DNA of 40,246 bases from Phycisphaerae bacterium (GTDB taxonomy: Bacteria > Planctomycetota > Phycisphaerae > Tepidisphaerales > Tepidisphaeraceae). Position numbers and translations under genes: made by a program. Numbering within the stretch: position 1 is the first letter of the stretch; the number at the start of each line of letters is the position of its first letter. Of this stretch, positions 16,341 through 37,634 are shown piece by piece. Location of the stretch: the NCBI GenBank assembly GCA_025936175.1, contig JAICTV010000021.1, positions 1-40,246 on the forward strand. Direction: 5' to 3'. The notes under the pieces are model-generated. The model worked only from the letters and a program-made list of their open reading frames with translations, had not been told where the DNA came from and made no database searches.

Positions 16341-16949
16341 TTAATCCTTCTGCTTCGTCGCCCCCAGTTCCTTGGCGATCTCGCTCTCGAGCTCATCGAG
16401 CTTCCCCAGCTCCGCCTTTTCGCCGGCCAGCACCTCCGCCTGGATCATCCGATCGATCTCGTCGTCGGTGACCAGGTCCTCGCGCGTCGTCGCGGCGGTC
16501 CCGCTGCGCGCGGCGTCTTCCATCGAATCGAGGAACAGCTCCATCCGCTCTTCCATCGATCCCGCCTGCGCAACCGCCTTCTCCCAATCCGCCTGCGTCT
16601 TGGTCAGATCCATTTCGCCGAAGATCTGACCGATCTGTCCGGCCATGACGTTCATCGATTCCGCGAACTGCGCGCTCGCTTGCGCCTGCTGCGAGATAAG
16701 CATCGCGTTCTTGATCGCCAGCAACTGCCGCTCGAGCATCTTCTTCACCGCCGCCGTCTTCTTCAGCGCCGAGCGGATGAACTGATACTGCCCGTCGTCG
16801 CCGATCTGCTTGGCGTGCCGCGCGTTGCGAATAAAATCCTCGGCGAATTTTTCCTGCTGTCGGATCGAGCGCTCAATCGAGCGCATGCCCGCCTTCACCT
16901 TCATCTCGCGCTCGATGCGACGCTCGTCTTTGCTTTTGAACAGGCCCAT
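16341..16949 (-). CDS. ESCRT-III-like protein, Vps2/CHMP type, with weak MIM1-like C-terminus
   Basis: The ATG at 16949 has GAGG eight bases upstream and gives a 202-residue product starting MGLFKSKDERR. Reading it against the known pattern of Vps24/CHMP3, the order and spacing agree along the whole length. A basic start is followed by GMRSIERSIRQQ (CHMP3 has EMRVVDRQIRDI). A basic alpha1-alpha2 hairpin runs to about residue 110, with LKKTAAVKKMLERQLLAIKN. An acidic helix LFLDSMEDAARS follows (131-149), then TDDEIDRMIQAEV (161-173; CHMP3 has EMEIDRILFEIT). The last helix has ESEIAKELGATK (188-199), which fits the MIM1 pattern at the acidic, first hydrophobic, Leu and basic positions but lacks the usual Arg and last Leu. 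It lies at the end of the 24.6-16.3 kb cluster. ESCRT-III proteins form membrane-deforming filaments. A PspA-like or unrelated coiled coil is the alternative. Confidence 0.75.
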   Translation of the reverse strand: MGLFKSKDERRIEREMKVKAGMRSIERSIRQQEKFAEDFIRNARHAKQIGDDGQYQFIRSALKKTAAVKKMLERQLLAIKNAMLISQQAQASAQFAESMNVMAGQIGQIFGEMDLTKTQADWEKAVAQAGSMEERMELFLDSMEDAARSGTAATTREDLVTDDEIDRMIQAEVLAGEKAELGKLDELESEIAKELGATKQKD

Positions 16950-16959
16950 GATGCACACC

Positions 16960-17295
16960 TCAATCTCGCGACATCGGCAAATAGAACGCCAGCCAGAACC
17001 CGCCGATCGTCATCCAGAACACGCCCCAGCCCGTCCCGCCGCGGATGCACTCGCCCAGCCCCCCGGCAAGGCACGCGAGCGCGCTGGCAAAACCGACGCG
17101 CCGCGGTCCGCCGAGCGCGGCAAGGAGTTGACCGATGAATTCCAGCACGCCGTCCACCCGCTCGCGGAAGAACCCGGTGACGCGACGCGACCGATCGCCG
17201 ACCGGATCCGCGCGACCATAATCGATCGGCGGCGACGACGGCGACGGGGCGTCACCCGGCGCTTCGACTCGTCCGACATGCACGCGCTCGCCCAT
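16960..17295 (-). CDS. Small membrane protein between a membrane gene and the ESCRT-III-like gene
   Basis: A 111-residue protein, not recognised. The first 40 residues are Pro/Asp/Arg-rich and probably cytoplasmic. Residues about 45-70 contain a VDGVLEFIGQLLAALGG helix, and the end (about 75-108) has FASALACLAGGLGECI and GVFWMTIGGFWLAFYL, which read as one or two membrane segments. It starts three bases after the stop of the upstream membrane protein gene and stops 10 bases before the ESCRT-III-like ATG, so the three are very likely one transcript. An inferred role is a membrane anchor or recruiter for the ESCRT-III-like protein. Confidence 0.65.
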   Translation of the reverse strand: MGERVHVGRVEAPGDAPSPSSPPIDYGRADPVGDRSRRVTGFFRERVDGVLEFIGQLLAALGGPRRVGFASALACLAGGLGECIRGGTGWGVFWMTIGGFWLAFYLPMSRD

Positions 17296-17298
17296 TGG

Positions 17299-17769
17299 CT
17301 ATGCCGCTCCTCGTTTGCGTCGCACGCGCTCCCATGCCCACGCAAACGGCACGAGCGGAAGCAGCGCGGCGTACAGCACCCACTCGGCGGCGTTGTTGCG
17401 ATGGAGGTTGATCGGCTCGGCCAGCCGCTCGCGTCGCCGCCAGCGGCAGCTCATGGTCCACACGGCCATCACGCCGATCAGGAGCGGAATGACCGCGAAG
17501 TTGAGGAAGTGGTCCGCCGGCAGCACGAAGATGCAGCAAAGTGCGGCGAGCAGCGGGATCCACGCGAGGTCCCACAGGCGCGCACCGAAATGAGCCAGCA
17601 CCGGAAATCGCTCGCCCCGGCTCCGAGAGTAGCTCAGCGCGACCGGCACCGAATCGGCGGCCACCGGAACCATCGGCTCGATCACCTCCGCCGGCGCGCG
17701 CAGCGCCGTCAGGCGCTGCACGTGATCCTCAGCGCTGCCGCGGAACGGTTTGATCTGGTCGCGGTGCAT
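17299..17769 (-). CDS. Membrane protein, about three membrane segments
   Basis: A 156-residue protein, not recognised. The first 65 residues are soluble. Hydrophobic segments follow at about 68-85 (LAWIPLLAALCCIFVLP), 88-105 (FLNFAVIPLLIGVMAVW) and 127-146 (AAEWVLYAALLPLVPFAWAW), separated by a basic loop WRRRERLAEP. It is first in a tight three-gene run with the 111-residue membrane protein and the ESCRT-III-like gene; spacing to the next gene is three bases. The context suggests a membrane partner of the helical protein. Confidence 0.7.
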   Translation of the reverse strand: MHRDQIKPFRGSAEDHVQRLTALRAPAEVIEPMVPVAADSVPVALSYSRSRGERFPVLAHFGARLWDLAWIPLLAALCCIFVLPADHFLNFAVIPLLIGVMAVWTMSCRWRRRERLAEPINLHRNNAAEWVLYAALLPLVPFAWAWERVRRKRGAA

Positions 17770-17819
17770 TCGGAGTTATCCGAAATCTCAGATTTTGGAC
17801 TTCGACAACATTCTAGCGA

Positions 17820-19268
17820 CTACGGCCTCACCCTCGGCACGTCCTGTGGCACACGGATGCGATAGACGTGCGTGTCGAAGGGCTCGAAGACGTCGCCGAA
17901 CTTCGTCCCGTTCGCTTCCGCCGGCGGAGCGGCGCGGTTCTCGAACAGCACTTCGATCGACCGCATCGGCGTGGGCATCGTCACCGTCGCATCGAGCACC
18001 GCGTCGTCCACGTTGACCATGATCAGGATGTAACCGCCGCCGCTGGTCGTATCGGGCTTGAGCATGCAGCGCAGCGGCGCCGGCGTAACGGAGTCGCCCT
18101 TGACGTCGACGGAGTATTTGAAGTCTTCGCCGACGGTCGGCGACAGCAGCGCCGGCGTCAGCTCGCGAATTTCGGCGTTCACCAGCCGCGTCGTTTCCCA
18201 GAGCGCCTTGGCCTGGATCAGCAGGATCGGCGACGCCAGCGTCCATGCGGGCGCGTTCTCGCGATAGCTCGGCCTGGGGTCGGGCGACATGCCGACGATC
18301 CCGCCGGTGCGGTTGGGCCAGGAGTCGAAGGTGAAGTACGCGATACCGGTAGCGCCGCTGACGACCGCGGTGTAAACCTGCGCCCGCATCTGCGTCGGCG
18401 TCGGCATGCGGTAGGGCCAGTCGCGATCGTGCGGATGCTGGAAGGCATCGACGATCGTCCAGACCGGCTTGCTGTCCTTATTCGCTTCGACCGCCAGCGA
18501 CACCACCTGCGGCATGCCGTCCGGATCAGCCGCGAGCGTCGGAGAACGGCGCTTGCGATCCACCAGCGGATAAATGTCCTGGCAGGAGATGTCCCCCGCC
18601 GTGTTCCACTTCAGCCACCACTCGCGGTGACTCGGATAGATCGCCGGCGGGTCGTTGATGAACACCGGCAGGCCCGGCGCGCCGTAAGCGATGTTCTTCT
18701 TGTAGTCCTGGAACTGCTTGAACAGCGCGTCCATGTCCACCTGCCCGAGCCGGCCGGTGGGCTCATCCGTCCACATGTTCGCGAGCAAATTCGGGTGGTC
18801 CTTGATCTTCGAGAGCGTGTCGCTCGAGATCGATCCCATGTAGACGACTTGCAAGCCCGCGTCCTGCGCCAGCGCCAGCGCCTGATCGTCCCAGTTCGTC
18901 GGCCAGACCGTGTTGAAGTTCGCCTTGGCCAGCGCGTCCCACCCGACGTACTTCCCGTCCGGCCCGTCCGGGAGAACCATGCCCCAAAGGCCAAGCGGAA
19001 AGAACGATTTGCTCGGCTCGAACTGCCGCAGCGGCCGGCCGTTCTTGTCCGTGTGCGGCACGCGCTGGCGATGAACGGTGGAGATGTAGGCGCTCGCTCC
19101 ATTCACCCGCGACGCGAGCAGCGGGAGCAGGCAGAGAACGACCAATGAAGATGAACGCAAAGGAGCAAAGACGCAAAGCGGCAAAGAAGGCAGACACGAT
19201 CTTCTGATTTCTTTGCTTCTCGGCTCCTTTGCGTCTGTGCGTTTGTCTTTCAAAGGGTTCAATTTCAC
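17820..19268 (-). CDS. Secreted TIM-barrel-like protein, possible glycoside hydrolase, uncertain start
   Basis: The open frame reaches GTG at 19268, but the first 41 codons are read through the palindrome at 19145-19256. The true start is probably a TTG near 19160 or 19145, just before the export signal SSLVVLCLLPLLASRVNGA. The mature part has KSFFPLGLWGM, then an alternating pattern as in a (beta/alpha)8 barrel: FNTVWPTNWDD, LQVVYMGS, HPNLLANMWTDEP with a candidate acid, DISCQDIYPL, KPVWTIVDAFQH and GATGIAYFTFDSWP. A beta domain ending in DTHVYRIRV follows. It is a paralogue of the gene at 31150-32433. It is probably a carbohydrate-active enzyme; no GH family is assigned. It lies inside the ESCRT-like cluster and looks like an unrelated insertion. 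Confidence 0.75.
   Translation of the reverse strand: MKLNPLKDKRTDAKEPRSKEIRRSCLPSLPLCVFAPLRSSSLVVLCLLPLLASRVNGASAYISTVHRQRVPHTDKNGRPLRQFEPSKSFFPLGLWGMVLPDGPDGKYVGWDALAKANFNTVWPTNWDDQALALAQDAGLQVVYMGSISSDTLSKIKDHPNLLANMWTDEPTGRLGQVDMDALFKQFQDYKKNIAYGAPGLPVFINDPPAIYPSHREWWLKWNTAGDISCQDIYPLVDRKRRSPTLAADPDGMPQVVSLAVEANKDSKPVWTIVDAFQHPHDRDWPYRMPTPTQMRAQVYTAVVSGATGIAYFTFDSWPNRTGGIVGMSPDPRPSYRENAPAWTLASPILLIQAKALWETTRLVNAEIRELTPALLSPTVGEDFKYSVDVKGDSVTPAPLRCMLKPDTTSGGGYILIMVNVDDAVLDATVTMPTPMRSIEVLFENRAAPPAEANGTKFGDVFEPFDTHVYRIRVPQDVPRVRP
19145..19256. repeat. Long imperfect palindrome, family E, overlapping a gene start
   Basis: The left arm contains GAACGCAAAGGAGCAAAGAC and GCAAAGCGGCAAAGAA. The right arm in reverse complement reads AAACGCACAGACGCAAAGGA and GCCGAGAAGCAAAGAAA. 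The element occupies the space between the end of the second ESCRT-like gene and the signal peptide of the TIM-barrel protein, and it extends the latter's reading frame. Confidence 0.75.
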
Positions 19269-19879
19269 GCTTCCTTGTCCGGCGATGCGTTGCGGCGACG
19301 GACGGCCTGATCCGCCTGCTCGAACCCCTGCTCTTCCTTCACCGCGCCCTTGTCCATCTGGTTCCAGATCGCCATCAGCTCATTGCCGCTGCTGGTCAGC
19401 TCCGTGTTCGACAGCGCGTCCTTGTCGGCGTCGGCGCCCAGCTCCAGGATCGTGTTCAGCCGCTCGTTGTACATGTCCTGCGAGACCGAATCGTCCTCGA
19501 TCCAGCCGCTGATTTTGGCGACGTCCTTGTCGGTCAGATTGAGCCGCCCGAGCGCGCGGCCCTTCTCGTTGTTCTCTTTGACCATCCGCAGCCGGCTGAC
19601 GGTCAGCAGCTCCTTGCTGCGCAGGTTCAGCTCCCGCGCGGCCATGAGCTGTTCCTGCGTCTTGAGCTCAAAGTCCTGCGCCAGCGCCTTGCGCAGCTCC
19701 GGCGATTTCTGCTGCGCGCCCTGCTGGAAGATCTTCTGCTTCTGCGTCGAGACGTCGCCAATCTTCTTGAACAGCCGGTCGCGCTGCTTGGTGAGCAGGA
19801 TCTCCTCCCGGCGGAGTTCCTGCCGGTTGAGCTCACTGAGCGATTTCTTTCGGCCGAAGATTTTGTCGATTAAGGCCAT
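19265..19879 (-). CDS. Helical coiled-coil protein, candidate second ESCRT-III-like subunit
   Basis: The ATG at 19879 gives 204 residues starting MALIDKIFGRKKS, a short amphipathic segment that could bind membrane. Residues 14-108 form a long, strongly basic helical hairpin (ELRREEILLTKQRDRLFKKI, LRKALAQDFELKTQEQL, LRSKELLTVSRLRMV). Residues 113-178 are acidic and helical (LTDKDVAKISGWIEDD, YNERLNTILELGADAD, ELMAIWNQMDKG). This basic-then-acidic layout and length are those of ESCRT-III proteins, although I do not see a clear MIM motif and specific sequence identity is weak. It lies downstream of the winged-helix ESCRT-like gene on the same strand. Alternatives are a PspA/Vipp1 relative or another coiled-coil protein. 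Confidence 0.55.
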   Translation of the reverse strand: MALIDKIFGRKKSLSELNRQELRREEILLTKQRDRLFKKIGDVSTQKQKIFQQGAQQKSPELRKALAQDFELKTQEQLMAARELNLRSKELLTVSRLRMVKENNEKGRALGRLNLTDKDVAKISGWIEDDSVSQDMYNERLNTILELGADADKDALSNTELTSSGNELMAIWNQMDKGAVKEEQGFEQADQAVRRRNASPDKEA

Positions 19880-19913
19880 GCTGCCATCACTCACTGGTGC
19901 GCACCGGCGAGAT

Positions 19914-19986
19914 GTCATCCCGAGGTACCCCGAGGGATCTCGATCACCACTGGTGTCCGAGATCCCTGGGAGTAACTCGGGATGAC
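19914..19986. repeat. Long imperfect palindrome, family A copy 2
   Basis: The left arm GTCATCCCGAGGTACCCCGA continues GGGATCTCG. The right arm in reverse complement is GTCATCCCGAGTTACTCCCA followed by GGGATCTCG, so the arms match nearly perfectly around a loop of about 15 bases. It lies between the two ESCRT-like genes at 20008 and 19879. Confidence 0.9.
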
Positions 19987-20007
19987 ACTGTACGCGAGGT
20001 CACGGGT

Positions 20008-21501
20008 TTACCCCGCCTCCGGCTCGCCGCGCTGCTTGCGTTCCTTGTCGCGCTCCGGCGCCGGGTTGATCGGCGGGATGATGCGCTGCCCGGCGGGCGT
20101 CTGCGTCGCTCCGGCGATGCCCTGACCTTTCGCCGGTTCCTTCACCGATTCGGCGGGCGCGCCGGTTTCGCGGAGAAGCTCCTCGTAAAGCGCCTGCTCT
20201 TCGCTGCTCATCCCGCTGCCGACGACGCCCCCGACGCTTTCGGCCATCTCGCTGCTCTCCTGCAGCGTCGCGAGCATCTCCTCGGCGGCCGCCGCGTCGC
20301 TGGCCATTTCCTCGCTGTCCGGCAGTTTCGCGACTTCGCCCTGCTGCACCAGTTCGAGGTTGTGCAGGTGCGTGCTGACGACGTTGACCTGTTGGTTGAG
20401 CACCGTCAACAACTGCTGTCGGCGCTCGATGTCCTTGCGGAGCTGGAGCAACTGGCTCGTCACCCGGCGCTTGGCCAGCTCCGCGGTCGCGCTCTTGAAC
20501 TGCTCGCGCAGCTCGGCGTCCTTCGATTCGAGGGTGGAGATCTCCTCGTACGCGCGGTCGCGCTGCTGGCCGAGCGCGGCGCGGCGCTCGGAGAGAAAGG
20601 CGATCTTCTTCTCCGTCTCCCCCTTGCGGGCGAAGAGAGATCGGAGCTTGTCAATCATCGGCATATCCAAACCTCCGGCGCTGACGCGGTCTGCCGTCGC
20701 CGAGCTTTCGCGGAAGAGCACCAGCCGACCGTCCAGCTTCTTCGCCGCCAGCCCGGACTGCTCCTTCGCGTATGATCTTAACTCCGACTCGACGATTTGC
20801 AGCGGGAGCTGCGTTTTTGCCGCGATGCGATCGGCGGCGATGCCGGAGGCGGCCAGGTCCATCTGCTGCTGCTCGATCGCGTCGCGGACGCGGTCGCGCT
20901 TGTCCGCTTCGGCTTCGGGATTCAACAACTCCTTCAGGTCGGACGCGGCGGGATTCGCCGTGACCGTGAACCCGCCGGCGTCGTTCGGCTCGACCAGGAT
21001 CAGGTTTCCGGCGGTCACGCGCGTCGTCATGTCGCGCGCTTCTGGTGTGAATCCACTGGTGGAGAGCAAGACGATCGTTGCCGGTGATCGATCCGTCGCC
21101 GATGCCTCCGCTGCGACGATCTGATCGATCTCCGCCCGCCCGACCGGTTGCGCGGCTTGCCCAGACACCAGCCGCTCGATCGGAGACAGCGAGCGCACGC
21201 GCACCTTGCCGATCGTCTGGCTGAAGAACCACCATTTCTTCTGCCACAGGTCCACGTCGATCGACCGCTGCATCGGCATCTGCTTCTGCACATCGCGATC
21301 GAACCTGCCCATGGCGGCCATCGTCCGCTTGATATCGACGCTGTCGTCGCCGCGGACGATCTTCGCTTGCGATGCGTTCACCGCCCGCCGGCCGCGCAGC
21401 GTGTCCACGCGCAGGCGCTCGTCGGCGAGCAGGCGCTCGACGTGATCGATGAAACGCTTCTCGATCTGCTGGTGATGGGATGGGTCGTTCGAAGTGCTCA
21501 T
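20008..21501 (-). CDS. Winged-helix plus ESCRT-III-like helical protein (CHMP7-like layout)
   Basis: A 497-residue product started at the ATG at 21501, which overlaps the stop of the upstream 61-residue gene as ATGA. Residues 1-100 are charged and contain WQKKWWFFSQTIGKV. Residues 140-175 read TIVLLSTSGFTPEARDM and NLILVEP, faintly like the last strands of Mrr-type nuclease-fold domains. Residues 200-266 look like a winged helix: DRVRDAIEQQQMDL, IAADRIAAKTQL, PLQIVESELRSYAKE and wing KKLDGRLVLF. Residues 280-445 form an ESCRT-III-like module: MPMIDKLRSLFARKGETEKK, a basic hairpin with LLQLRKDIERRQQLL, QQVNVVSTHLHNLEL, then acidic helices and EEQALYEELLRE. The last 50 residues are a Pro/Gln/charged tail. 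A strong internal ribosome site precedes residue 280, so a short form may also be made. The domain calls are by eye. Confidence 0.7.
   Translation of the reverse strand: MSTSNDPSHHQQIEKRFIDHVERLLADERLRVDTLRGRRAVNASQAKIVRGDDSVDIKRTMAAMGRFDRDVQKQMPMQRSIDVDLWQKKWWFFSQTIGKVRVRSLSPIERLVSGQAAQPVGRAEIDQIVAAEASATDRSPATIVLLSTSGFTPEARDMTTRVTAGNLILVEPNDAGGFTVTANPAASDLKELLNPEAEADKRDRVRDAIEQQQMDLAASGIAADRIAAKTQLPLQIVESELRSYAKEQSGLAAKKLDGRLVLFRESSATADRVSAGGLDMPMIDKLRSLFARKGETEKKIAFLSERRAALGQQRDRAYEEISTLESKDAELREQFKSATAELAKRRVTSQLLQLRKDIERRQQLLTVLNQQVNVVSTHLHNLELVQQGEVAKLPDSEEMASDAAAAEEMLATLQESSEMAESVGGVVGSGMSSEEQALYEELLRETGAPAESVKEPAKGQGIAGATQTPAGQRIIPPINPAPERDKERKQRGEPEAG
20662..20676 (-). promoter_or_regulatory. 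Internal ribosome binding site and ATG within the winged-helix/ESCRT-III-like gene
   Basis: GGAGGT stands seven bases upstream of an in-frame ATG at 20664 (codon 280). The annotated start at 21501 has no Shine-Dalgarno. Initiation here would give a 218-residue ESCRT-III-like protein beginning MPMIDKLRSLF, about the length of the two neighbouring helical proteins. Confidence 0.6.
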
Positions 21502-21683
21502 GTCGCTTGAGCGGGAGGGCGAGGCTCCTGCCGAGCCGGGGTATAGGTTCGCGAAGACGCCAGCGGCTCGGCGGGAGCCTCGCCCGCGCGACCGCTGCGC
21601 CGCAGCCGCAGCCAGAGGAACGCGAGGAACACGATTGCCCACGCCCAGCCGGCGACGGAGAAAATGATGTACACCTCGCGCAT
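21498..21683 (-). CDS. Small single-pass membrane protein with repeat-encoded tail
   Basis: A 61-residue protein started at an ATG with AGGA six bases upstream. Residues 4-27 (VYIIFSVAGWAWAIVFLAFL) form one membrane helix followed by basic LRLRRSGR. The remaining half, about residues 31-58, is encoded by the palindromic repeat at 21511-21592 and is rich in Pro, Ala, Glu and Arg. The stop codon overlaps the ATG of the winged-helix gene (ATGA), so translation of the two is likely coupled. Being real is supported by the ribosome site and the coupling, but the tail looks like an accident of repeat insertion. Confidence 0.6.
   Translation of the reverse strand: MREVYIIFSVAGWAWAIVFLAFLWLRLRRSGRAGEAPAEPLASSRTYTPARQEPRPPAQAT
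21511..21592. repeat. Long imperfect palindrome, family D, within a coding region
   Basis: The left arm is GCGGGAGGGCGAGGCTCCTG then CCGAGCCGGG. The right arm in reverse complement is GCGCGGGCGAGGCTCCCGCC then GAGCCG. The loop holds GTATAGGTTCGCGAAGACGC. The element forms the second half of the 61-residue membrane protein gene. Confidence 0.85.
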
Positions 21684-21698
21684 GCCGTGTCCTGTTCG

Positions 21699-22685
21699 TC
21701 AAGCCACCCGACTCTGCGCGACGCCGGATCCACAGCGCGGACAATATCGCGCCCCCGCCGGCAGCGTCGCCTGACACAGCCCGTTCTCGCAGCGCTTGCC
21801 GTGAATCATGTAGCTCGGCACCGCGACCATCGGCCGGCGGTTCATCAGCATGCCGCGGACGCGGTCCATCAACTGCCCGCGGAGCTGCTGCGACGTCGAG
21901 TTGATGTATCCTCGCTGGCTCGCGCCCGCAAACATCATGGGGATCGACCACAGGGCGCCCACCGAGATCAAGACGAGCGTGCAGACGACCCAGGCGGCGT
22001 TCACGTCCATCGAGAGCGCGGACGGCCGGATCGGCTCGACACCGTGCCGCGCGGCGATCGCGTTGAAGCGGTCGATGACCGCGCGCGTACTGTGCCGGTG
22101 CAGTGCCACCTGTGCCCACAGCGCCAGATAGGCGAGCGACAGGCATACGTTCCACGCGAGAAACGCGACCAGGTTCGTCTCGAAGCCCGAGCGCATGTGG
22201 CGGTAAAACCCGTAAGTCGCGTCCATCACCGCGTTAAAACTGAAATGACCGTGCAGCGTCGCGAACCCGATCAGCACGAACGCGATGATCCCGAAGCGGA
22301 TAATGCTCCCGAGGCCGTGGCGCAGGCGGACCGTGCGGACCGCATCCGCGAACGCCGCCGCGTCTTCTCCGCCCGCGTGGACGCGCAGCCAGTCGGCGAG
22401 GTAGCCGAGCTGCTGCCGCTCGAACATCGCGAAGCTGCGGAAGGCGCGGCTGAGGCGAAGGGCCGGGGCGATCCCCAGCGTGAAGAATCCCAGCAACGCG
22501 GCGCGCACGGGGCTCAGCGAAAACTGGTTGTGATAGGACCGTCCCATCGATCGCAGCACGGCGGCGGCGAGATGATCCGTTTCTATCGCCACTGGCGCGT
22601 GAGCCTGCGCAGGGAGCACGCCGAGGTCTGGAGCGATGTTCGTCTCGACAACCAACGCACGCGTCCTTCCCGATTGCGTTACCAC
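21699..22685 (-). CDS. Polytopic membrane protein with C-terminal zinc ribbon
   Basis: The start is uncertain. The GTG at 22685 overlaps the stop of the upstream gene (GTGTGGTAA) and gives about 328 residues; longer in-frame starts lie entirely inside that gene. A soluble N-terminal part is followed by about four membrane segments: VRAALLGFFTLGIAPALRL, IIRFGIIAFVLIGFATL, TNLVAFLAWNVCLSLAYLAL and AAWVVCTLVLISVGALWSI. The end has CENGLCQATLPAGARYCPRC, a Cys4 zinc ribbon also seen in the upstream gene and related in kind to those of the kinase. The family is not recognised. It lies 15 bases before the 61-residue membrane gene on the same strand. Confidence 0.7.
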   Translation of the reverse strand: MVTQSGRTRALVVETNIAPDLGVLPAQAHAPVAIETDHLAAAVLRSMGRSYHNQFSLSPVRAALLGFFTLGIAPALRLSRAFRSFAMFERQQLGYLADWLRVHAGGEDAAAFADAVRTVRLRHGLGSIIRFGIIAFVLIGFATLHGHFSFNAVMDATYGFYRHMRSGFETNLVAFLAWNVCLSLAYLALWAQVALHRHSTRAVIDRFNAIAARHGVEPIRPSALSMDVNAAWVVCTLVLISVGALWSIPMMFAGASQRGYINSTSQQLRGQLMDRVRGMLMNRRPMVAVPSYMIHGKRCENGLCQATLPAGARYCPRCGSGVAQSRVA

Positions 22686-23014
22686 ACCGCCGCCCGGCGC
22701 ACCTGCACCGGCTGCGCCATCGGCAGGCCGCGTCCGCACCGCCGGCAGAAACGCGCGCCGCGCGGGTTCGCCGCGCAGCAGCCCCGTGTCTGACATCGGA
22801 CGCCCTGCGGCGGAGGCGTGAATCGCGCCGGCGCAACCGCGCCCGCAGCCGCGGGGCCGAACGGAGCGAAACGCCGCCGCGGCCGAAGCCCAAAGATCGT
22901 CGCCATCCCGCTGACGATCAGCCGGACGACCGTGAAGGCGACCCATCCGCAGAAGACGACCGCCGTCAGCGTGATCACGACCATGAAGATGAGGAGCGTC
23001 GCGAACCAGCTCAT
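22679..23014 (-). CDS. Small membrane-anchored zinc-ribbon protein
   Basis: A 111-residue protein. Residues 1-40 form one or two closely packed membrane segments (MSWFATLLIFMVVITLTAVV, FCGWVAFTVVRLIVSGMATI). A basic, Pro/Ala-rich linker follows, then a Cys4 zinc ribbon: CQTRGCCAANPRGARFCRRC (about 74-93). The stop overlaps the start of the next zinc-ribbon membrane gene, and the gene begins 27 bases after the kinase stop. The function is unknown. The shared ribbon type suggests that the kinase and these membrane proteins meet at the membrane. Confidence 0.75.
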   Translation of the reverse strand: MSWFATLLIFMVVITLTAVVFCGWVAFTVVRLIVSGMATIFGLRPRRRFAPFGPAAAGAVAPARFTPPPQGVRCQTRGCCAANPRGARFCRRCGRGLPMAQPVQVRRAAVW

Positions 23015-23041
23015 CGCACTTGATCCATCAAGCCCCGGAAC

Positions 23042-24130
23042 TCAGGCCGTCGTCAACTGCTGCGGCGGCGGCGGAGCGAGCTGCTCGCCGCAGAAGATGC
23101 AGTACTGATCGTTCAGGTCAGGGTACGCGCCGCACTTCTCGCACCGCCTGACCTTGGCCACCAGCTGCACGCCGCAGTACATGCAGAACTGATCATAGAG
23201 ATCGATCTGCTTGCGGCACGAGGGGCAGCGCCGCTGCCCCGCCGGCACCAATCCTTCGCCCGGAACGATCTGCGGCCCGTTGACGCGTGGCGGAAGCGGC
23301 GGCGGTGACATCGCGGGCGCCGACGCCGTCGCGAGCGCGCCCAGAAAATCATCCGCCGACGCGAATCGCTTCTCCAGCCGCGCGTACGACCGGCGGAAGA
23401 TGTCGTCGAGAAACTTCGGCGACGACGGATTGAGATCGCTCGGCACATCCGTCCCGGCCGGCCGCTCGCCGGTCAGCATCTCGTAGAGGATCACCCCGCA
23501 CGCGTACAGGTCCGCGCGGCCGTCGATGTTCCCGCCGCCGCGCTGCTCGGGGGCCATGTAATCCAGCGTGCCGGCGATCTCCTTCGCCTGCGGCGTATTG
23601 AGCGAGGCGGAATAGACGATCGACTGCGCCCCCGCCGTCGTCGCGGCCTTGCCGAGGCCGAAATCCGTCACCTTGACGACGCCTTCGGCGCCGTAGCCGT
23701 CCGTGCGGGCGCGCTGATGGACGAGGATGTTCTCCGGCTTGATGTCGCGATGGACCAGCCCGTTCGCGTGCGCGTACTTCAGTCCCGCGAGCACCTGCCG
23801 CATGATGGCGACGGCGTCGTTCGGGGCAATCGCCTTGGACGAAATCAGCGGCCGCAGGCTCGAGCCGGGGATGTACTCCATCGTGAGGTACGGCGTCTGT
23901 GCGTACGGATCGAATCCGATCGCGCGGACGATGTTGGGATGCACCAGGCCGTGGATGGCCACGCCTTCGCGCTGGAGCTCACGGAGGTATTGCGGATCGG
24001 TCGGGATCTTGATCGCGACGAGCTGATCGACCCAGACGTGGTGGTGCGCCTTCCAGACTTCGCCGAAGGTGCCGCCACCGACCTTTTCGTCGAGGATGTA
24101 CTCGCTGACGCGTTGACCCTGAGCGGGCAT
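23042..24130 (-). CDS. Ser/Thr protein kinase with two C-terminal zinc ribbons
   Basis: The ATG at 24130 has GAGGAG seven bases upstream and gives 362 residues. It is a complete Hanks-type kinase domain: glycine loop VGGGTFGEVWKA (17-28), AIKIP with the ATP-binding Lys at 41, HRDIKPEN (127-134), DFGLGKA (156-162), GTLDYMAPEQ (187-196) and DLYACGVILYEMLTGE. A Pro-rich linker leads to two tandem ribbons with Cys at 302/305/316/319 and 330/333/344/347 (CPSCRKQIDLYDQFCMYCG; CEKCGAYPDLNDQYCIFCG). No membrane segment or PASTA domain is present. In the 24.6-16.3 kb run it is followed by zinc-ribbon membrane proteins and the ESCRT-III-like genes, so it may phosphorylate them. That link is inference. 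Confidence 0.9.
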   Translation of the reverse strand: MPAQGQRVSEYILDEKVGGGTFGEVWKAHHHVWVDQLVAIKIPTDPQYLRELQREGVAIHGLVHPNIVRAIGFDPYAQTPYLTMEYIPGSSLRPLISSKAIAPNDAVAIMRQVLAGLKYAHANGLVHRDIKPENILVHQRARTDGYGAEGVVKVTDFGLGKAATTAGAQSIVYSASLNTPQAKEIAGTLDYMAPEQRGGGNIDGRADLYACGVILYEMLTGERPAGTDVPSDLNPSSPKFLDDIFRRSYARLEKRFASADDFLGALATASAPAMSPPPLPPRVNGPQIVPGEGLVPAGQRRCPSCRKQIDLYDQFCMYCGVQLVAKVRRCEKCGAYPDLNDQYCIFCGEQLAPPPPQQLTTA

Positions 24131-24191: not shown

Positions 24192-24584
24192 TCACGCGAG
24201 CTTCTCCGCGAGCCAGTCGCAGACGAGAAGATTATATACCGCCGCGAACAGCGCTCCGACGACAAGGAAAGTCCACGCCGTCGCGCCGGGGATGTTCCAG
24301 TGGAACAGCCACGCGAGCAGGAGCGCCTCGATCACCGTATACGCGGCAACCAGTGCCGCGCCGGCGGCGTTGCTCTCGCGCTTGGCGACCCAGGTCGTCA
24401 GGAAAAACGTCGCCCACGGCGCGAAAAGCACCACCAGCAGCCACGAGACAATCTTTCCGCTGCCGGAAAGCAGCATCTGCCGCGTGGCTTCGTCCATCCG
24501 CCACCACGAGATGCCGCCGGCGATCACCGCCAGCGCCACCGCGCCGGCGACGACCTTGCCTGTGACAGTCTTCAGAAGGTCCAT
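24192..24584 (-). CDS. Four-segment membrane protein
   Basis: A 130-residue protein from the ATG at 24584. Hydrophobic segments are VVAGAVALAVIAGGISWW, IVSWLLVVLFAPWATFFLTT, AAGAALVAAYTVIEALLLAW and AWTFLVVGALFAAVYNLLV. It is not recognised. It ends 61 bases before the kinase start on the same strand and is the most upstream gene of the 8-kb minus-strand cluster. The region upstream, shared with scpA, is about 155 bases and contains TTATAA-like sequence on this strand but no clear promoter. Confidence 0.7.
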   Translation of the reverse strand: MDLLKTVTGKVVAGAVALAVIAGGISWWRMDEATRQMLLSGSGKIVSWLLVVLFAPWATFFLTTWVAKRESNAAGAALVAAYTVIEALLLAWLFHWNIPGATAWTFLVVGALFAAVYNLLVCDWLAEKLA

Positions 24585-30661: not shown

Positions 30662-30667
30662 CCCCGA

Positions 30668-30750
30668 TGGCGGCTTGGGCGTCTCGCCCGAGCGTTCGGG
30701 CGGCGCGCCTCTGGGCCGCAATTGCGCGGGCGGGCCGCCCACGCCACGCC
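30668..30750. repeat. Long imperfect palindrome, family C copy 1
   Basis: The left part GGCTTGGGCGTCTCGCCCGA continues GCG. The right part in reverse complement is GGCGTGGGCGGCCCGCCCGC. Both are related to the copy at 36151-36255. It separates the heparinase-like gene from the convergent lipoprotein gene and could act as a terminator in both directions. Confidence 0.75.
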
Positions 30751-30754
30751 GTTG

Positions 30755-31153: not shown

Positions 31154-32433
31154 CTACTGAACTTATACACGTGGACATCGTACGGCGCGAACCAGTCTTT
31201 CATCGTCCCGTCCGCCGCCGTCACCTTGCGCGGCTCTTCGTAGAGAACCGCACCTTCGTGGATTTCCTTCGGCAGGCCGCTGAACTCCACCTGCTGCGTC
31301 TTCTGGGGGTTCTTGCTGGCGGCGAGGATGAACAGATCCTTCCCCGCCTCGCGGGCGAGCAGCTCCATCCCCTCGCCCTTGACCTTGATCGGCAGCTTCG
31401 AGTTGGGCGCGATCAGTGCGTCCGCCAGCGGACTTTTGGCGTTGATCTCGGCGAGCAGCGGCTTGAGGACGCGCTCCCAGAACGTCCAGTTGTAGCCGAG
31501 CGCCGCGTCGCGCTCGTTGAGCGTCAGCTTGTTCGCGCCGCCGAAATAGTTGAGGGTGTTGGCGCCGTTGATGATGGCGTCGTAGGTCATGAAGCGCTCT
31601 TCGGGGAAGGTCGGCATGCGCAGCGTTTTGCCCTTGGTCGCGGTGCCGCTGAAGGAGACCTGCAGCGTCATCCAGACCGGCTTTCCGCCCGCCGCTTCGA
31701 CCATCATCTTCGTCCAGTCGCCGACCGCGCTGATGTCCTTGTTCGGAAAGTTCGCCAGGTGTCCGCCGGGCGGATAGCTGATCGGGAAAACGTCGGCGCC
31801 GGTGATGTCGAGCACGTTGCGATACGCCGCCAGTTCCTGCACCGTCCCGCGCGGCGCCTGGATGACGACCATCGGGTGATTCGGATCGAGCTGGTGGATC
31901 ATCTTGTACGGCAGCGCGAGGGTCTGCGGCTGCTTGGTCCCCTTCTCCTTGCTGTTCATCTCTCCCCACAGCGGCTCGTCCTCGCCCTTCCAGAACGCCA
32001 GCGCCGGATGATCCCTGTGCGTCTCGACGACCTTCTTGAGCTTCTCGATCTTGGCGGCGTCCTTCTCGGTGAAGTGGGCGATGTCTTCGCCGAGCCAGAG
32101 CCACGCGTAGATGTGCGCCGAGGCCAGCGCGTCGAGATAATCGTGAACGAGCTTGTAGCCCGGTTCGGTCCAGCCGTAATTTTCGCCGCCGATGTTGGGA
32201 ACGATGCGGGCGAGGTTGACGCCGCCGTCAGCGAACTCCTGCCAGGCGGATTTTCCTTCGGGCGTCTTGCCATCGGGTGGCGGAAGCACGGCGACGGAGA
32301 TGCCGAAGATTTCTTTCCCGCCGATCGAAGTGGAGTCGCCGGTGATGGTGACTTTGGTGGGTTCTGCCTGCGCGGTTCGAAGCCCGGCAAGAAGCATCAG
32401 CGCCGCCGTTATCGTTAACGCTCGATAATGCAT
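31150..32433 (-). CDS. Secreted TIM-barrel-like protein, paralogue of the 17.8-kb gene
   Basis: A 427-residue product from the ATG at 32433, with signal peptide MHYRALTITAALMLLAGL ending in AQA. The barrel-like part has FGISVAVLPPP, GVNLARIVPNIGGENYG, IYAWLWLGEDIAHF, HPALAFWKGEDEPLWG (candidate acids), LDPNHPMVVIQAPRG, ITGADVFPISYPP, GKPVWMTLQVSFSG and GANTLNYFGG. A C-terminal beta domain ends DVHVYKF. Segments HPxLAxxxxxDEP, GKPVWxxLQ and D(T/V)HVYxx match the gene at 17820-19268, so they are paralogues. Probably a carbohydrate-active enzyme; the family is not assigned. A lipoprotein gene is coupled to its stop. Confidence 0.8.
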   Translation of the reverse strand: MHYRALTITAALMLLAGLRTAQAEPTKVTITGDSTSIGGKEIFGISVAVLPPPDGKTPEGKSAWQEFADGGVNLARIVPNIGGENYGWTEPGYKLVHDYLDALASAHIYAWLWLGEDIAHFTEKDAAKIEKLKKVVETHRDHPALAFWKGEDEPLWGEMNSKEKGTKQPQTLALPYKMIHQLDPNHPMVVIQAPRGTVQELAAYRNVLDITGADVFPISYPPGGHLANFPNKDISAVGDWTKMMVEAAGGKPVWMTLQVSFSGTATKGKTLRMPTFPEERFMTYDAIINGANTLNYFGGANKLTLNERDAALGYNWTFWERVLKPLLAEINAKSPLADALIAPNSKLPIKVKGEGMELLAREAGKDLFILAASKNPQKTQQVEFSGLPKEIHEGAVLYEEPRKVTAADGTMKDWFAPYDVHVYKFSR

Positions 32434-32968
32434 CGCCTCATGCTGCGATGCGCCGCGTGAAAAAGCAACGCGCCCGACCGGAACGGGCAACGACATTCGA
32501 TCACAAACCGCAGGGGCGCGAGTCTTCAATCCGCAGTTTCTCGCGGGATTCGAGGTGCCGCCCCGCCGCGTTGCAGTTTCGTGCGCACGGAACTGCAATC
32601 GCACGGGAGATAGGGGAGCGCCGCTCTTTGACAATTGAATACGTCCACCGCCCGATCCCCGACGATGCCCGGTCCTGCCCCGGTCGCGCGGGCGAAAATG
32701 CAAAACGAAGCCAACGAGCGCATTCGAGCGCGCGCGGCGAAACGAACCCAATCGGAGCCATCGTGAAAGCTGGTTTTCAGGGCAAAAACGCGGCTTTCGC
32801 GTTATTTCCAGGGGCGGCGGGTGACAAAACGAACCCATTTCGCAGATTTGTATACAATGGCGTCTCTTGGCAACGCCGTCCGCCGCCTCCGATATGCCTT
32901 TACATCGCGCGCGCGGGCGGCGGTGGCGATCTGCACGTCCGCGGGCCAGGTCGCTGAAAGAGGGTGTG
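32434..32968. other. Long intergenic region with three spaced 13-base direct repeats
   Basis: No gene is supported here. Short frames are Arg-rich and unlike any protein. Three related 13-mers occur at 32701 (CAAAACGAAGCCA), 32738 (CGAAACGAACCCA) and 32825 (CAAAACGAACCCA). A TTGACA-containing string, CTTTGACAATTGAATACG, starts at about 32627. The region lies upstream of the plus-strand cytochrome-type gene and the divergent TIM-barrel gene, so it should hold both promoters. Confidence 0.5.
32853..32858 (+). promoter_or_regulatory. Candidate -10 element for the DUF1549/DUF1553 gene
   Basis: TACAAT within GTATACAATGG lies about 110 bases before the ATG at 32969. It is the only AT-rich hexamer of this kind close to the gene. 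No -35 is evident at the standard distance. Confidence 0.3.
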
Positions 32969-35900
32969 ATGAGAGCACGAGGGATCGTCGTCGCCGCTGT
33001 TCTTGCCTTCTGCGTCGCGCTGCTCGCAGCCGCGCCCGCACGCGCCGCCTCGTCTCAGCCGCCGAAGAAGATCGACTTCAATCGCGACATTCGTCCGATC
33101 CTTTCCGACAACTGCTACTTCTGTCACGGCCCGGACAAGAACCGCCGCAAGGCCGACCTTCGCCTCGACACGAAGGACGGTTTGTTCGGCGAGAAGGACG
33201 ACACGTTCCCGGTCGTCCCCGGCAAGCCGGACGACAGCGTGCTGTTCATGCGCATCACGTCCGATGACCCGGACTACCGGATGCCGCACAAGGATTCCAA
33301 CAAGCACCTCACGCCCGAGCAGATCGCGACCATCAAGCGGTGGATCGAAGAAGGCGCACAGTGGAAGGGGCATTGGTCGTACCTCCCGCCCGTGAAGGCG
33401 CCTCTGCCGCAGGTGGAGATCGACAAGTTCACGCGCAACGACATCGATCGCTACGTCGGCGAGGCGTATCAGGAGCACCAGCTTTCGCCCGCGCCGGAGG
33501 CGGATCGCGTCACGCTCATCCGCCGGCTCAGCTTCGACCTCACCGGCCTCCCGCCGACGCCGGCGGAGGTGGATGAGTTCGTGAACGACAAGGAGGCCAA
33601 CGCCTATGAGAAGCTCGTCAACCGCCTGATGGCCTCGCCCCACTTCGGCGAGCGGATGGCGGTTTCGTGGATGGACCTCGTTCGCTACGGCGACACGATC
33701 GGCTTCCACTCCGACAACCCGCGCGAGGTCTGGCCGTGGCGGGATTGGTGCATCAACGCGTTCAACAACAACGAGCCGTTCGATCAGTTCACCATCGAGC
33801 AGATCGCCGGCGATCTGCTGCCCAACCCGACCCGCGAGCAGAAGGTCGCCTCCGGTTACAACCGCCTGCTGCTGACGACCGGCGAAGGCGGCGCGCAGGC
33901 CAAGGAGTACATCGCCAAGTACGGCGCCGATCGCGTGCGCAACGTCTCAACCGTCTGGCTCGGCTCGACGATGGGCTGCTGCCAGTGTCACGATCACAAG
34001 TTCGACCCGTTTTCGACGAAGGATTTTTACTCGCTGCAGGCCTTCTTCGCGGACATCCAGGAGCCGGCGATCTCGCTCCCGTCGCCGGAGCTGCTGCTGC
34101 CCGACGCGGAGCAGGAAGAAGAACTCAAGCGTCTGGACGAGACGATCGCGGCGGCGAAGGCGAAGTTGAATCAGACCACTCCCGAGATCGCCGCCGCCGA
34201 GTTGAAGTACGAGACGAAGGCGCGCGAGGCGCTGAAGGATCCGGTCACCTGGACGCCGCTCACGGTGATCGAAGCCAGGAGCGCGGGGGGAGCGGTGATG
34301 ACGATCGGCGAGGACAAGCAGCACGTGCTCGTGTCCGGCAACGCGCCCGACAAGGACACGTATACGGTCCGCGCGACGACGAAGGCGAAGAAGATCACCG
34401 CGCTTCGCGTCGAGGCGGTGCCGCACAAGCGTCTGCCCGCCGGGGGCCCGGGCCGGGCGGCCAACGGCAACTTCGTCCTGACCGAGATCGACCTCGCCGC
34501 CGAGAAAGGCGTCGCGCCGACCACGCAGCCGGTCGCGCTGCAGAACGCGTCGGCATCCTTCGAGCAGACGCTCTTCGCCGAAGCCAGCCCCTATCGCAGG
34601 TACTCCGCCGCCGGAGCGATCGACGGCGACAAGTACGGGGACAAGTTCGGCTGGGCCATCCTCGACCGCACGAACCAGCCCAACTACGCGGTGTTCGAAA
34701 CCGCGTTCGACGTCGGCGGAGGCGACGAGGTGCAACTCGCGGTCACGATGAAGTTCAACCTCGGCGATCACCACGCGCTCGGGCACTTCCGCCTGTCGGT
34801 GACCGATTCGCCGCGTCCCGTGCGCGCGATCCCCGACAGCGGCATCCCGCCGGAGATCGTCAAGCTGCTCAAGCTCGATCCGGCGAAGCTGACGGCAGAG
34901 CAGAAGGAAAAGCTCGCCGCCCACTATCGCACCGTCGCGCCGGAGCTGGAGCCGGTGCGGCAGGAGCTCGCGCAGCTCACCCAGCAGCGCGCGGACATGA
35001 CGGGTCCGGCCGTGATGACCAAGTACAACCAGAACAAACCGCGCACGATCCCGCGCACGCTGATCTCCGTCACCGGGACGCCGCGCGAGACGCGCATCCT
35101 CGCGCGCGGCAACTGGCAGGACGACAGCGGCGAGGTCGTCACGCCGCACGTCCCGCACTTCCTTCGCCAGCTCGACGTGCCGAAGGATCAGCGCGCGACG
35201 CGACTAGACCTGGCGCGTTGGCTGGTCGCGCGCGACAACCCGCTCACCGCCCGCGTCTTCGTCAACCGCCTGTGGAAAATGTTCTACGGGCAAGGCATCG
35301 CCAAGCCGCTCGACGACATGGGCTCGCAGGGCGATTGGCCCACGCACCCGGAGCTGCTCGACTACCTCGCCGTCGAGTTCATGGACAGCGGCTGGGACGT
35401 CAAGCACATGGTCAAGCTGATGGTCGAGAGCGGGACGTACCGTCAGGACTCGATCGGATCGAAGGAGACAAGGGAAGCGGACCCGTACAACAAGTGGGTC
35501 GCGCGGCAAGGCTCCTTCCGTCTCGACGCCGAGTTCGTGCGCGACAACGCGCTGGCGGTCTCCGGGTTGCTCTCACCGCGAATGTTCGGCCCGAGCGTCA
35601 AGCCCTATCAGCCGGCGGGCTACTGGGAGTTCCTCAACTTCCCCAAGCGCACGTACGACCAGGACCACGGCGACAAGCTCTATCGCCGCGGCCTGTACAC
35701 GTGGTGGCAGCGCACGTTCCTCAACCCAAGCCTGCTGAACTTCGACGCGCCGAGCCACGAGGAGTGCACCGCCGAGCGCACGCGCTCGAACACGCCGCAA
35801 CAGGCGCTGACGCTGCTGAACGATGTCACTTACGTCGAAGCCGCGCGCGTCTTCGCCGCCCGCATCATGAAGGAATGCCCCGGCGATGCGACCGCGCGGG

Positions 35901-36139
35901 TCAAGTGGGCGTACCACACCGCCCTCTCGCGCGAGCCGACGCCGGCGGAGTTGCCGGTCCTACTCGCGCTGTATGACAAGCACCAGAAGCGCTACGCGAG
36001 CGACAAAGCGGCGGCGGAAAAACTTGTGACCATGGGCGAAGCCCCGCCGGCGAAGGATCTCGACGAATGCGAACTGGCCGCGTGGACGAGCGTCGCTCGT
36101 GCGATCCTGAATTTGCACGAGACGATTACGCGATCGTGA
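32969..36139 (+). CDS. Planctomycete cytochrome c / DUF1549 / DUF1553 protein
   Basis: The ATG at 32969 has AGAGGG close upstream and gives 1056 residues. Residues 1-28 are a signal peptide ending ARAA. CYFCHG (49-54) is the haem c site of the PSCyt1 domain. DUF1549 starts near 140 (YVGEAYQEHQLSPAPEADRV, LIRRLSFDLTGLPPTPAEVD) and contains TMGCCQCHDHKFDPF, a second CxxCH. A carbohydrate-binding-like insert and a charged helix follow. DUF1553 is C-terminal (RVFVNRLWKMFYGQGI, FMDSGWDVKHMVKLMVESGT, RTRSNTPQQALTLLND). Such proteins are abundant and lineage-typical in planctomycetes and are thought to act in extracytoplasmic redox or polysaccharide use. The DUF1501 partner that usually follows is missing here. 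Confidence 0.93.
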   Translation: MRARGIVVAAVLAFCVALLAAAPARAASSQPPKKIDFNRDIRPILSDNCYFCHGPDKNRRKADLRLDTKDGLFGEKDDTFPVVPGKPDDSVLFMRITSDDPDYRMPHKDSNKHLTPEQIATIKRWIEEGAQWKGHWSYLPPVKAPLPQVEIDKFTRNDIDRYVGEAYQEHQLSPAPEADRVTLIRRLSFDLTGLPPTPAEVDEFVNDKEANAYEKLVNRLMASPHFGERMAVSWMDLVRYGDTIGFHSDNPREVWPWRDWCINAFNNNEPFDQFTIEQIAGDLLPNPTREQKVASGYNRLLLTTGEGGAQAKEYIAKYGADRVRNVSTVWLGSTMGCCQCHDHKFDPFSTKDFYSLQAFFADIQEPAISLPSPELLLPDAEQEEELKRLDETIAAAKAKLNQTTPEIAAAELKYETKAREALKDPVTWTPLTVIEARSAGGAVMTIGEDKQHVLVSGNAPDKDTYTVRATTKAKKITALRVEAVPHKRLPAGGPGRAANGNFVLTEIDLAAEKGVAPTTQPVALQNASASFEQTLFAEASPYRRYSAAGAIDGDKYGDKFGWAILDRTNQPNYAVFETAFDVGGGDEVQLAVTMKFNLGDHHALGHFRLSVTDSPRPVRAIPDSGIPPEIVKLLKLDPAKLTAEQKEKLAAHYRTVAPELEPVRQELAQLTQQRADMTGPAVMTKYNQNKPRTIPRTLISVTGTPRETRILARGNWQDDSGEVVTPHVPHFLRQLDVPKDQRATRLDLARWLVARDNPLTARVFVNRLWKMFYGQGIAKPLDDMGSQGDWPTHPELLDYLAVEFMDSGWDVKHMVKLMVESGTYRQDSIGSKETREADPYNKWVARQGSFRLDAEFVRDNALAVSGLLSPRMFGPSVKPYQPAGYWEFLNFPKRTYDQDHGDKLYRRGLYTWWQRTFLNPSLLNFDAPSHEECTAERTRSNTPQQALTLLNDVTYVEAARVFAARIMKECPGDATARVKWAYHTALSREPTPAELPVLLALYDKHQKRYASDKAAAEKLVTMGEAPPAKDLDECELAAWTSVARAILNLHETITRS

Positions 36140-36150
36140 ACGCTCTCTTC

Positions 36151-36255
36151 TCGTGGCTTGGGCCTCTGGCCCGAGAGCGTTCGAGCGGAACGACGCATTG
36201 GTGGGACAAGAGCGGCTCAATCCGCCAGCGCTCGGGCGAGACGCCCAAGCCACGA
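36151..36255. terminator. Large palindrome (family C copy 2) filling the gap between two convergent genes
   Basis: The left arm TCGTGGCTTGGGCCTCTGGC then CCGAGAGCG. The right arm in reverse complement is TCGTGGCTTGGGCGTCTCGC then CCGAGCGC. The element starts 11 bases after the cytochrome gene's stop and ends at the base before the stop of the Vps4-like gene, so it is well placed as a bidirectional terminator. It shares its arms with the copy at 30668-30750. Confidence 0.75.
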
Positions 36256-37410
36256 TCAGGAGGCGACGGCGCGGCCCCAGTCTTCGAATTTGCGCAGCAT
36301 CTCCGCCGTCACCGACGGTCTCACTTCGGCGACGGCGTCGGCGATCGTCTCGTTGGTGATGTCGCCTTCCTGGCCCGAAGCGACCGAGCGCAGGAACGGG
36401 ATGACCGCCGCGCGGTCGCACAGGTACTTGATGTCGGCGCCGCTGAAGCCCTCGATCTTCTTCGCCAGCGCGTCGAGATCGATGTCGTCGGCGAGGGGGC
36501 GCTTGGAGAGATAGATCTCGAGCATCTTCCGTCGCGCGGGAAGGTCCGGCAGCGGGATGTAGACCTTCTCGTCGAATCGGCCGGGACGGAGCACCGCCGG
36601 GTCGAGTTGCCACGGGACGTTCGTCGCGCCCATGAAAAGGATGGGCGAGACATCCTTCTCATCAAAGCCCTCCATCCCCTGCAGGATCTGTGGAACGACG
36701 CGCTGCATGACGCTCGAACCCTCATCGCGCCGCGCGGGGATGAGCGATTCGATCTCGTCGATGAAGATGATCGCGCGCGTCTCCTCCGCGGCGGCGTCGA
36801 AGAGCTTCTTCAGGTTCTGCTCCGCTTCGCCGACCCATTTGCTCAGCACGTCGGCGGCGGAAATGCGGAAGAAGGTGGCGTCGATCTCGCCGGCCGTGGC
36901 CTTGGCGAGCATCGTTTTCCCCGTGCCGGGCGGGCCGTAGAGGAGCACCCCGCCGCCCGGGCGGATGCCGAATTTTTCCGCCAGCTCCGGGTGCTCGAAG
37001 GGGTAGATCATCTTCAGGCGGATGTCTTCCTTGACCTGATCGAGGCCGGCGACGTCGTCGAAACGGAGCCTGGGCTTTTCCTTGACGATCCACTTGTCGG
37101 CGCTTTGGTCGGCGCCGTCGTCGGATTCTTTCGTGGACTCCATCCGGCCCTTCGCCGCACTCGGCGCCGAAGTGCGCCGGTTGTCTTTTTTCGCTTGTTC
37201 GCAGTCGCGCGCCAGCTCGAGAAGACGAGACGCGATGTCCTGACGTCCGGCGCGCAGCTCGTCTCCCTGCGCGTCCTTGGCGAGCTGCGTCATCGTCCGC
37301 GCGGCTTCCAGCAGGTACAGCCGCGCGCTGTCCCACTGCATCGCGCGGCGGGCGTCCAGGCCCTTTTGCTTGTACCGCTCGAACTGTTCCCACGTCGCGC
37401 CGTTGCTCAT
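36256..37410 (-). CDS. Vps4-like AAA ATPase with N-terminal MIT-like domain
   Basis: The ATG at 37410 gives 384 residues. Residues 5-76 look like an MIT three-helix domain (YKQKGLDARRAMQWDSARLY, LLEAARTMTQLAKDA, IASRLLELARDCEQAKK). After a polar linker, the AAA module begins RLRFDDVAGLDQVKEDIRL. Walker A is GPPGTGKT (159-166), pore loop KWVG (191-194), Walker B IIFIDEIE (214-221), sensor 1 ATN (262-264), and candidate arginine fingers R275 and R278. GATNVPWQLDPAVLRPGRF and YIPLPDLPARRKML closely follow the meiotic-clade (Vps4/katanin/spastin) pattern. The end, VRPSVTAEMLRKFEDWGR, is the clade's C-terminal helix. The Vps4 beta-domain is absent. Its ATG overlaps the stop of a small membrane gene. 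It should disassemble ESCRT-III-like filaments. Confidence 0.85.
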   Translation of the reverse strand: MSNGATWEQFERYKQKGLDARRAMQWDSARLYLLEAARTMTQLAKDAQGDELRAGRQDIASRLLELARDCEQAKKDNRRTSAPSAAKGRMESTKESDDGADQSADKWIVKEKPRLRFDDVAGLDQVKEDIRLKMIYPFEHPELAEKFGIRPGGGVLLYGPPGTGKTMLAKATAGEIDATFFRISAADVLSKWVGEAEQNLKKLFDAAAEETRAIIFIDEIESLIPARRDEGSSVMQRVVPQILQGMEGFDEKDVSPILFMGATNVPWQLDPAVLRPGRFDEKVYIPLPDLPARRKMLEIYLSKRPLADDIDLDALAKKIEGFSGADIKYLCDRAAVIPFLRSVASGQEGDITNETIADAVAEVRPSVTAEMLRKFEDWGRAVAS

Positions 37411-37634
37411 GGCTGCTGCGGCCTCCGCGCATCCTGCAAATGTTTTACGCCGTGCAAAAACGAGTATACGCCAAGCCCCACGATCACCCAGCGGAACCAC
37501 CAGCCGGCCAGCACGACGAAGAGCAGGAAGAAGAAGACCGCGAAGCCGATGAAGAGCCAGCCGGCGATGCGATGCTCGCGCGCGGTCGGCGGGCGGAACA
37601 TCGGATCGGTGTCGTTCGGCGACTGCCGCGTCAC
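37407..37634 (-). CDS. 75-residue membrane protein coupled to the Vps4-like gene
   Basis: The GTG start at 37634 overlaps the stop of the M24 peptidase gene (GTGA), and its stop overlaps the Vps4-like ATG (ATGA). The product has a short polar N-terminus, then hydrophobic segments AGWLFIGFAVFFFLLFVVLA (24-43) and WFRWVIVGLGVYSFL (46-60), so probably two membrane helices in a hairpin, and a basic end. It is not recognised. The double overlap makes it very likely real and co-translated with the ATPase. It may anchor the ATPase at the membrane. Confidence 0.75.
   Translation of the reverse strand: MTRQSPNDTDPMFRPPTAREHRIAGWLFIGFAVFFFLLFVVLAGWWFRWVIVGLGVYSFLHGVKHLQDARRPQQP

Follow-up and report, generated by a model that had tools for sequence, protein, structure and literature searches.

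Among the described systems closest to the genes considered here are two that pair ESCRT-III proteins with an AAA ATPase: ESCRT-III and Vps4 in eukaryotes and Asgard archaea (CHMP2A, Snf7, CHMP7 and VPS4B), and the Cdv system of TACK archaea, in which ESCRT-III proteins (CdvB) are encoded with an ATPase combining an MIT and an AAA domain (CdvC). In the available portion of a 2024 survey, systems with both vps4 and ESCRT-III genes are confined to archaea and eukaryotes (PMC10936438), and the accessible text of another article describes bacteria as being without a clear Vps4 homologue (PMC7615534). The accessible sections of a third report bacterial Vps4-like AAA genes and Snf7/PspA genes near other AAA genes, loci already proposed to serve ATP-dependent membrane remodelling; planctomycetes are not named in the main text of that version (PMC11237479). 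Here, we analyze 40,246 nt of DNA from a Phycisphaerae bacterium (Tepidisphaeraceae; GCA_025936175.1, contig JAICTV010000021.1, positions 1–40,246 of the forward strand; a draft genome, 86% complete), referred to below as the window. It carries genes for three helical proteins, B1, B2 and B3, and for an ATPase, AAA2; a paralogous ATPase, AAA1, occurs in relatives. We are fairly confident that B1 is an ESCRT-III (Snf7-family) protein and AAA2 an AAA ATPase inherited together with it and predicted to have an MIT-like domain, both being parts of a planctomycete ESCRT-like gene set. The helical proteins would probably assemble into a filament that bends membranes, and the ATPase is predicted to pull this filament apart. 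Our literature search, which covered titles and abstract openings and had preprints and many subscription journals outside its reach, found no paper describing this planctomycete cluster.

An earlier note on this DNA had proposed three helical genes on the minus strand with basic N-terminal and acidic C-terminal parts, and the coordinates, the lengths in relatives and the net charges all agree with this. B1 (16341..16949, 202 amino acids), B2 (19265..19879, 204 amino acids) and B3 (20008..21501, 497 amino acids) have relatives of matching open reading frame (ORF) length, namely 200–204 amino acids for B1 (50 ORFs), 199–206 for B2 (43 of 44) and 468–513 for B3 (39). Net charges of the first 110 residues and of the remainder are +9/−14 in B1 and +11/−9 in B2, and +4/−11 in B3 when counted from residue 280. 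The central proposal of the note, a bacterial ESCRT-III protein paired with an MIT-AAA ATPase, finds support in its best-evidenced parts, the B1 family and AAA1.

Judged by profiles and a predicted model, the B1 family is ESCRT-III (Snf7 family). A broad alignment of 66 members picked for spread (A7: the window, 14 loci and 51 of 120 listed homologues) gave matches to Pfam Snf7 for 42 of the 66 at E ≤0.1, the best being 1e-6; the next family was matched by 10. For a deep B1 member, Snf7 was the best Pfam family (5e-4), with residues 17–186 spanning the whole domain, and precomputed PF03357 assignments were found on 16 of its 120 listed homologues (214 in all). Against the PDB (E ≤10), the family profile returned seven matches, six to SNF7, CHMP2A or CHMP3 (best 0.0088) and one to spectrin, and a profile comparison to yeast Snf7 gave 1.1e-4. 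PDB and Pfam searches with profiles built from Phycisphaerae only yielded nothing useful.

The predicted structure points the same way. The AlphaFold2 model of B1 has a mean predicted local distance difference test score of 72, higher in the hairpin, and shows the helical hairpin core fold (alpha1–alpha2, alpha3/4 and a C-terminal helix). Its top Foldseek match is CHMP2A (E 3e-3, probability 1.00). Ranks 1–30 are all of the ESCRT-III superfamily (CHMPs, Snf7, Asgard ESCRT-III, CdvB, Vipp1 and PspA), the first unrelated structure being at rank 31; no match attains E 0.001, and the VIA scores are less discriminating. Bacterial PspA and Vipp1 have this superfamily fold in common with B1. The helical proteins might instead be a PspA/Vipp1-like envelope-stress scaffold, the AAA protein being a proteostasis ATPase of its own that happens to co-occur. 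Vipp1 and PspA chains do enter the Foldseek list, starting at rank 12, but ranks 1–11 are CHMP and Asgard ESCRT-III chains, placing B1 nearer to Snf7/CHMP, and PspA_IM30 is neither among the 21 Pfam families (E ≤1) matched by 42 window-type B1 sequences (A5: the window and 41 of the 50 B1 ORFs) nor among the five matched by the B1 of locus L186. A PspA_IM30 match is present as a separate gene in 23 of the 54 genomes with B1 found in the phylum, compared with 53 of the 240 others. These counts also rule out B1 as a replacement for PspA. Together with the gene linkage described below, this leaves us giving little credence to the scaffold explanation.

A C-terminal MIM1-like motif was scanned for in B1 with what we take to be the MIM1 consensus, the only motif type covered. 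Its loose form occurs near the C terminus in 52 of 111 deep B1 sequences and 8 of 48 phylum loci, with shuffle means of at most 0.4; it was found in none of the 42 window-type sequences, and the strict form in none of any set. The motif thus marks some families only, a difference from the eukaryotic and Asgard systems. One B1 set left out L194 (48 of 49 retained).

The ATPase AAA2 is encoded at 36256..37410 on the minus strand (384 amino acids). The plus-strand reading of this interval can be rejected, as its frame resembles no known protein. The suggestion that the gene encodes an MIT-like and AAA protein holds directly for the single AAA domain, with its Walker motifs, and for an N-terminal helical region, predicted to be a three-helix bundle at residues 7–80; the MIT part is reached by way of homology to AAA1. 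In AAA1 the N-terminal domain is, by profile comparison, an MIT domain: its eight top PDB matches are all MIT domains of VPS4A/B (best 2.6e-4), and the Pfam MIT model matches only one of 17 sequences at E ≤1. Against a five-sequence panel the AAA1 profile gives yeast Vps4 209 bits, over both the MIT and the AAA domain, and p97 D2 189 bits. The AAA1 and AAA2 profiles align over nearly their full length, and their N-terminal parts alone at 2.5e-6. The AAA2 N-terminal profile (A6) itself gives weak matches in Pfam and the PDB, the best MIT-like one being the chitin synthase structure 2mpk (0.26), presumably an MIT; the VIA fold list for the ATPase is silent on this part. The predicted bundle and the homology to AAA1 thus suggest an MIT domain in AAA2, on weaker evidence than for AAA1. 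A search of the draft window genome at E 1e-100 detected no AAA1. Of four window-type ATPases checked, two (L127 and L138) align with the archaeal CdvC model over almost all of its length, also in the N-terminal bundle, but the scores lie far below the CdvC cut-off.

Of the several ESCRT-III-type parts envisaged by the earlier note, B1 is supported as such, while B2 and B3 show a relationship with one another and only a marginal one with B1. The alignments comprised the window and 37 of 44 ORFs for B2 (A2) and the window and 35 of 39 for B3 (A3). B2 and the C-terminal part of B3, from about residue 280, are related at E 2.1e-6 over 168 columns; their profile scores to B1 are 0.0035 and 0.0014, respectively. 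Comparisons of B1 with B2 and B3 using narrower alignments, and of B3-C with B2, led nowhere. Pfam Snf7 matches two of 36 B3 sequences (best 0.41). From their mutual relationship and shared cluster, B2 is a likely, though not proven, ESCRT-III-like protein and B3 a putative one in its C-terminal domain, both with weaker evidence as ESCRT-III subunits than B1. Elsewhere the two parts of B3 have counterparts in genes of their own: the C-terminal part matches a helical gene of other families (2.2e-9) and the N-terminal part another gene (1.7e-36), the aligned portion lying outside the MerR domain of the latter; the window B3 is therefore a fusion of two genes. This fusion, B3-N joined to a helical domain, leads us to suspect a CHMP7-like order; the winged helix that would complete the comparison was not confirmed, helix-turn-helix matches being scattered over a few of the 36 sequences (HTH_40 in two, best 0.0069; MarR_2 in one, 0.013). 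Several helical subunits are also a feature of the eukaryotic and Asgard systems. In two genomes of the window's family (G005 and G018), B3 relatives (E ~1e-94 and ~1e-90) were seen although the searches for B1, B2 and AAA2 gave nothing there.

Co-occurrence links the B1 family to the ATPases across the phylum. In 294 Planctomycetota genomes, with AAA1 and AAA2 called at E ≤1e-100, B1 is present in 54 (23 families), AAA1 in 44 and AAA2 in 35. One or both ATPases occur in 52 of the 54 genomes with B1 and in four of the 240 without it (Fisher 2e-50, a value that ignores shared ancestry), as the earlier note would lead one to expect. Within 3 kb of B1, AAA1 is found in 38 of 42 genomes and AAA2 in 21 of 32, a proximity that argues against a merely co-occurring ATPase. 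Among 41 related genomes, using cut-offs of E ≤0.001 for the helical proteins and E ≤1e-60 for the ATPase, relatives were found of B1 in 21, B2 in 22, B3 in 24 and the ATPase in 19. One genome of the window's family, G013 (7.2 Mb on one contig), has B1, B2, B3 and AAA2 together.

The order of the genes is also conserved. A set of 51 named loci was assembled, all planctomycete-labelled except L107 and L131, and searched with tblastn. Among the 38 loci that extend 5 kb or more upstream of B1, 34 have a protein kinase gene, B3, B2 and B1 in succession on the same strand. Where 4 kb or more is available downstream of B1 (32 loci), the ATPase lies there in 19, starting within 2.5 kb of B1 in 17 and within 0.4 kb in 11; it matches at ≥100 bits in 24 of the 51 loci, and its alignment (A4) comprised the window and all 18 closed ATPase ORFs. 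In all six testable loci among the window-like L096–L107 the ATPase is absent downstream of B1, and tight linkage is found in more divergent relatives. Of the 24 B1 places in the phylum search without a locus, 20 regions were fetched, and ten (L179–L182, L184–L187, L190 and L193) hold a seven-gene cluster of MerR/B3-N, B3-C, B2, AAA1, B1, AAA2 and an SPFH gene. The MerR domain on the gene matching B3-N was seen in the L186 member. The last gene (L186:11650–13554 and relatives), downstream of AAA2 in these other families, has an SPFH/Band_7 match (4e-4, under the cut-off) followed by a likely beta-propeller; in the window genome it has a match only at 24% identity over 366–606. All five genes lie on the chromosome-length contig CP030884.1, and B1 and the ATPase on CP070718.1; such contigs, and the spread over 23 families, argue against contamination. 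The remaining alignments comprised 19 of 19 (A8), 24 of 24 (A9) and 17 (A11) sequences, and 24 of 47 matches (A10), the others being the other paralogue, truncated or redundant.

Several observations weigh against our reading of the window. The window copy of B1 has no Pfam match on its own, nor has any of 120 listed window-type homologues any Pfam domain, so that its membership runs through its family, although the family as a whole lands on Snf7/CHMP. AAA2 scores like Cdc48 and PAN, which would suit the scaffold explanation with its proteostasis ATPase, as would the unlinked ATPase in the window's family. B2 (0.44) and the C-terminal part of B3 (0.034) show no detectable similarity to yeast Snf7, in which they differ from the eukaryotic and Asgard subunits. 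Among the 41 related genomes, four of the 21 with B1 are without the ATPase at 1e-60, and one genome (G010) has the ATPase alone. Finally, the window is the only one of 15 genomes of its family with both genes to hold them within 20 kb; of the other 14, 13 are drafts with the two on different contigs, and one has them on the same contig at a distance of 4.9 Mb. Taken alone, this 21-kb neighbourhood thus proves little, and the window's own proximity of B1 and ATPase is ruled out as evidence of a functional link.

By comparison with the known systems, we would expect B3 to act as a recruiter or nucleator on the inner side of the membrane, and the helical hairpins of B2 and B1 to mediate their co-polymerization. 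B1 may then be gripped at its acidic C-terminal part by the ATPase's MIT domain, and extraction through the ring, powered by ATP, could remodel or recycle the filament, leading to constriction, scission or sealing. The conserved kinase may control assembly, and in other families the same cluster encodes a second MIT-AAA protein (AAA1) and the SPFH-domain protein. We infer that the filament polymerizes and is disassembled, and likewise the order of its subunits, binding through the MIT domain of the window ATPase and the role in the cell. What the data show is the family to which B1 belongs, the AAA domain, the MIT domain of AAA1, and the linkage and co-occurrence of the genes.

One possible cellular task is connected with FtsZ. 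The FtsZ model TIGR00065 scored over its cut-off in none of the 294 genomes (three weaker matches, none in a genome with B1; 13 of 14 controls over). An ESCRT-like machine devoted mainly to cell division, a Cdv-like engine for bacteria that have no FtsZ, would fit this; archaeal Cdv uses parts of these kinds to divide cells (PMC7615534). However, 240 of the 294 genomes are without B1, which excludes a general FtsZ substitute and makes such an engine lineage-specific at best; we regard it as unlikely. A broader version is possible, if on balance doubtful: FtsZ-less planctomycetes could run a complete ESCRT of their own, with a multi-subunit ESCRT-III filament, a fused recruiting subunit and one or two MIT-AAA motors, for membrane scission including the final division cut in lineages that keep it. 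More generally, many planctomycetes carry genes, usually adjoining, for an ESCRT-III-family protein and Vps4-like ATPases, which together would likely bend or cut membranes.

The planctomycete set differs from Cdv in being bacterial and in having a kinase, B3-N, an SPFH protein and up to two ATPases. It differs from the loci in the available sections of PMC11237479 in that the Vps4-like AAA there pairs with a TPR/6TM gene replacing snf7, whereas here the ESCRT-III and MIT-AAA genes adjoin. A conserved bacterial cluster with both parts would move the ESCRT-III/Vps4 pairing into Bacteria. It would bear on whether the pairing predates archaea or was transferred, and it would offer a concrete candidate for a membrane-scission machine in a phylum with FtsZ over the cut-off in none of 294 genomes.

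The conserved upstream neighbour of B3 in the window is a Ser/Thr protein kinase with C-terminal zinc ribbons (23042..24130, minus strand; the ORF opens at 24265 and the start at 24130 was chosen). A kinase and an AAA ATPase could also indicate a phage-defence or stress-signalling locus, and the PADLOC models IetA (7e-36) and PD-T4-6 (6e-57) match the ATPase and the kinase. These look like general domain matches, none was obtained for B1, B2, B3 or the SPFH protein, and the arrangement of genes in the cluster is conserved in many families; we consider such a locus very improbable. Between kinase and B3 lies a gene for a likely membrane protein with a C-terminal zinc ribbon (21699..22946, minus strand, start provisional; zinc ribbon 0.001, under the cut-off), which is lineage-restricted, being present in three of the 51 named loci.

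The B2–B1 pair is split in the window by two minus-strand genes (17299–19268), the first weakly matching a glycosidase (0.1), the other small and matching nothing in Pfam, which recur at ≥100 bits in one and none of the 51 loci, respectively. The contigs of L107 (labelled Gemmatimonadaceae) and L131 (labelled Alphaproteobacteria) carry planctomycete-type genes and are probably mis-binned. Next to the ATPase gene, the plus strand (32867–36139) encodes a protein with PSCyt1, PSCyt2 and PSD1 domains.

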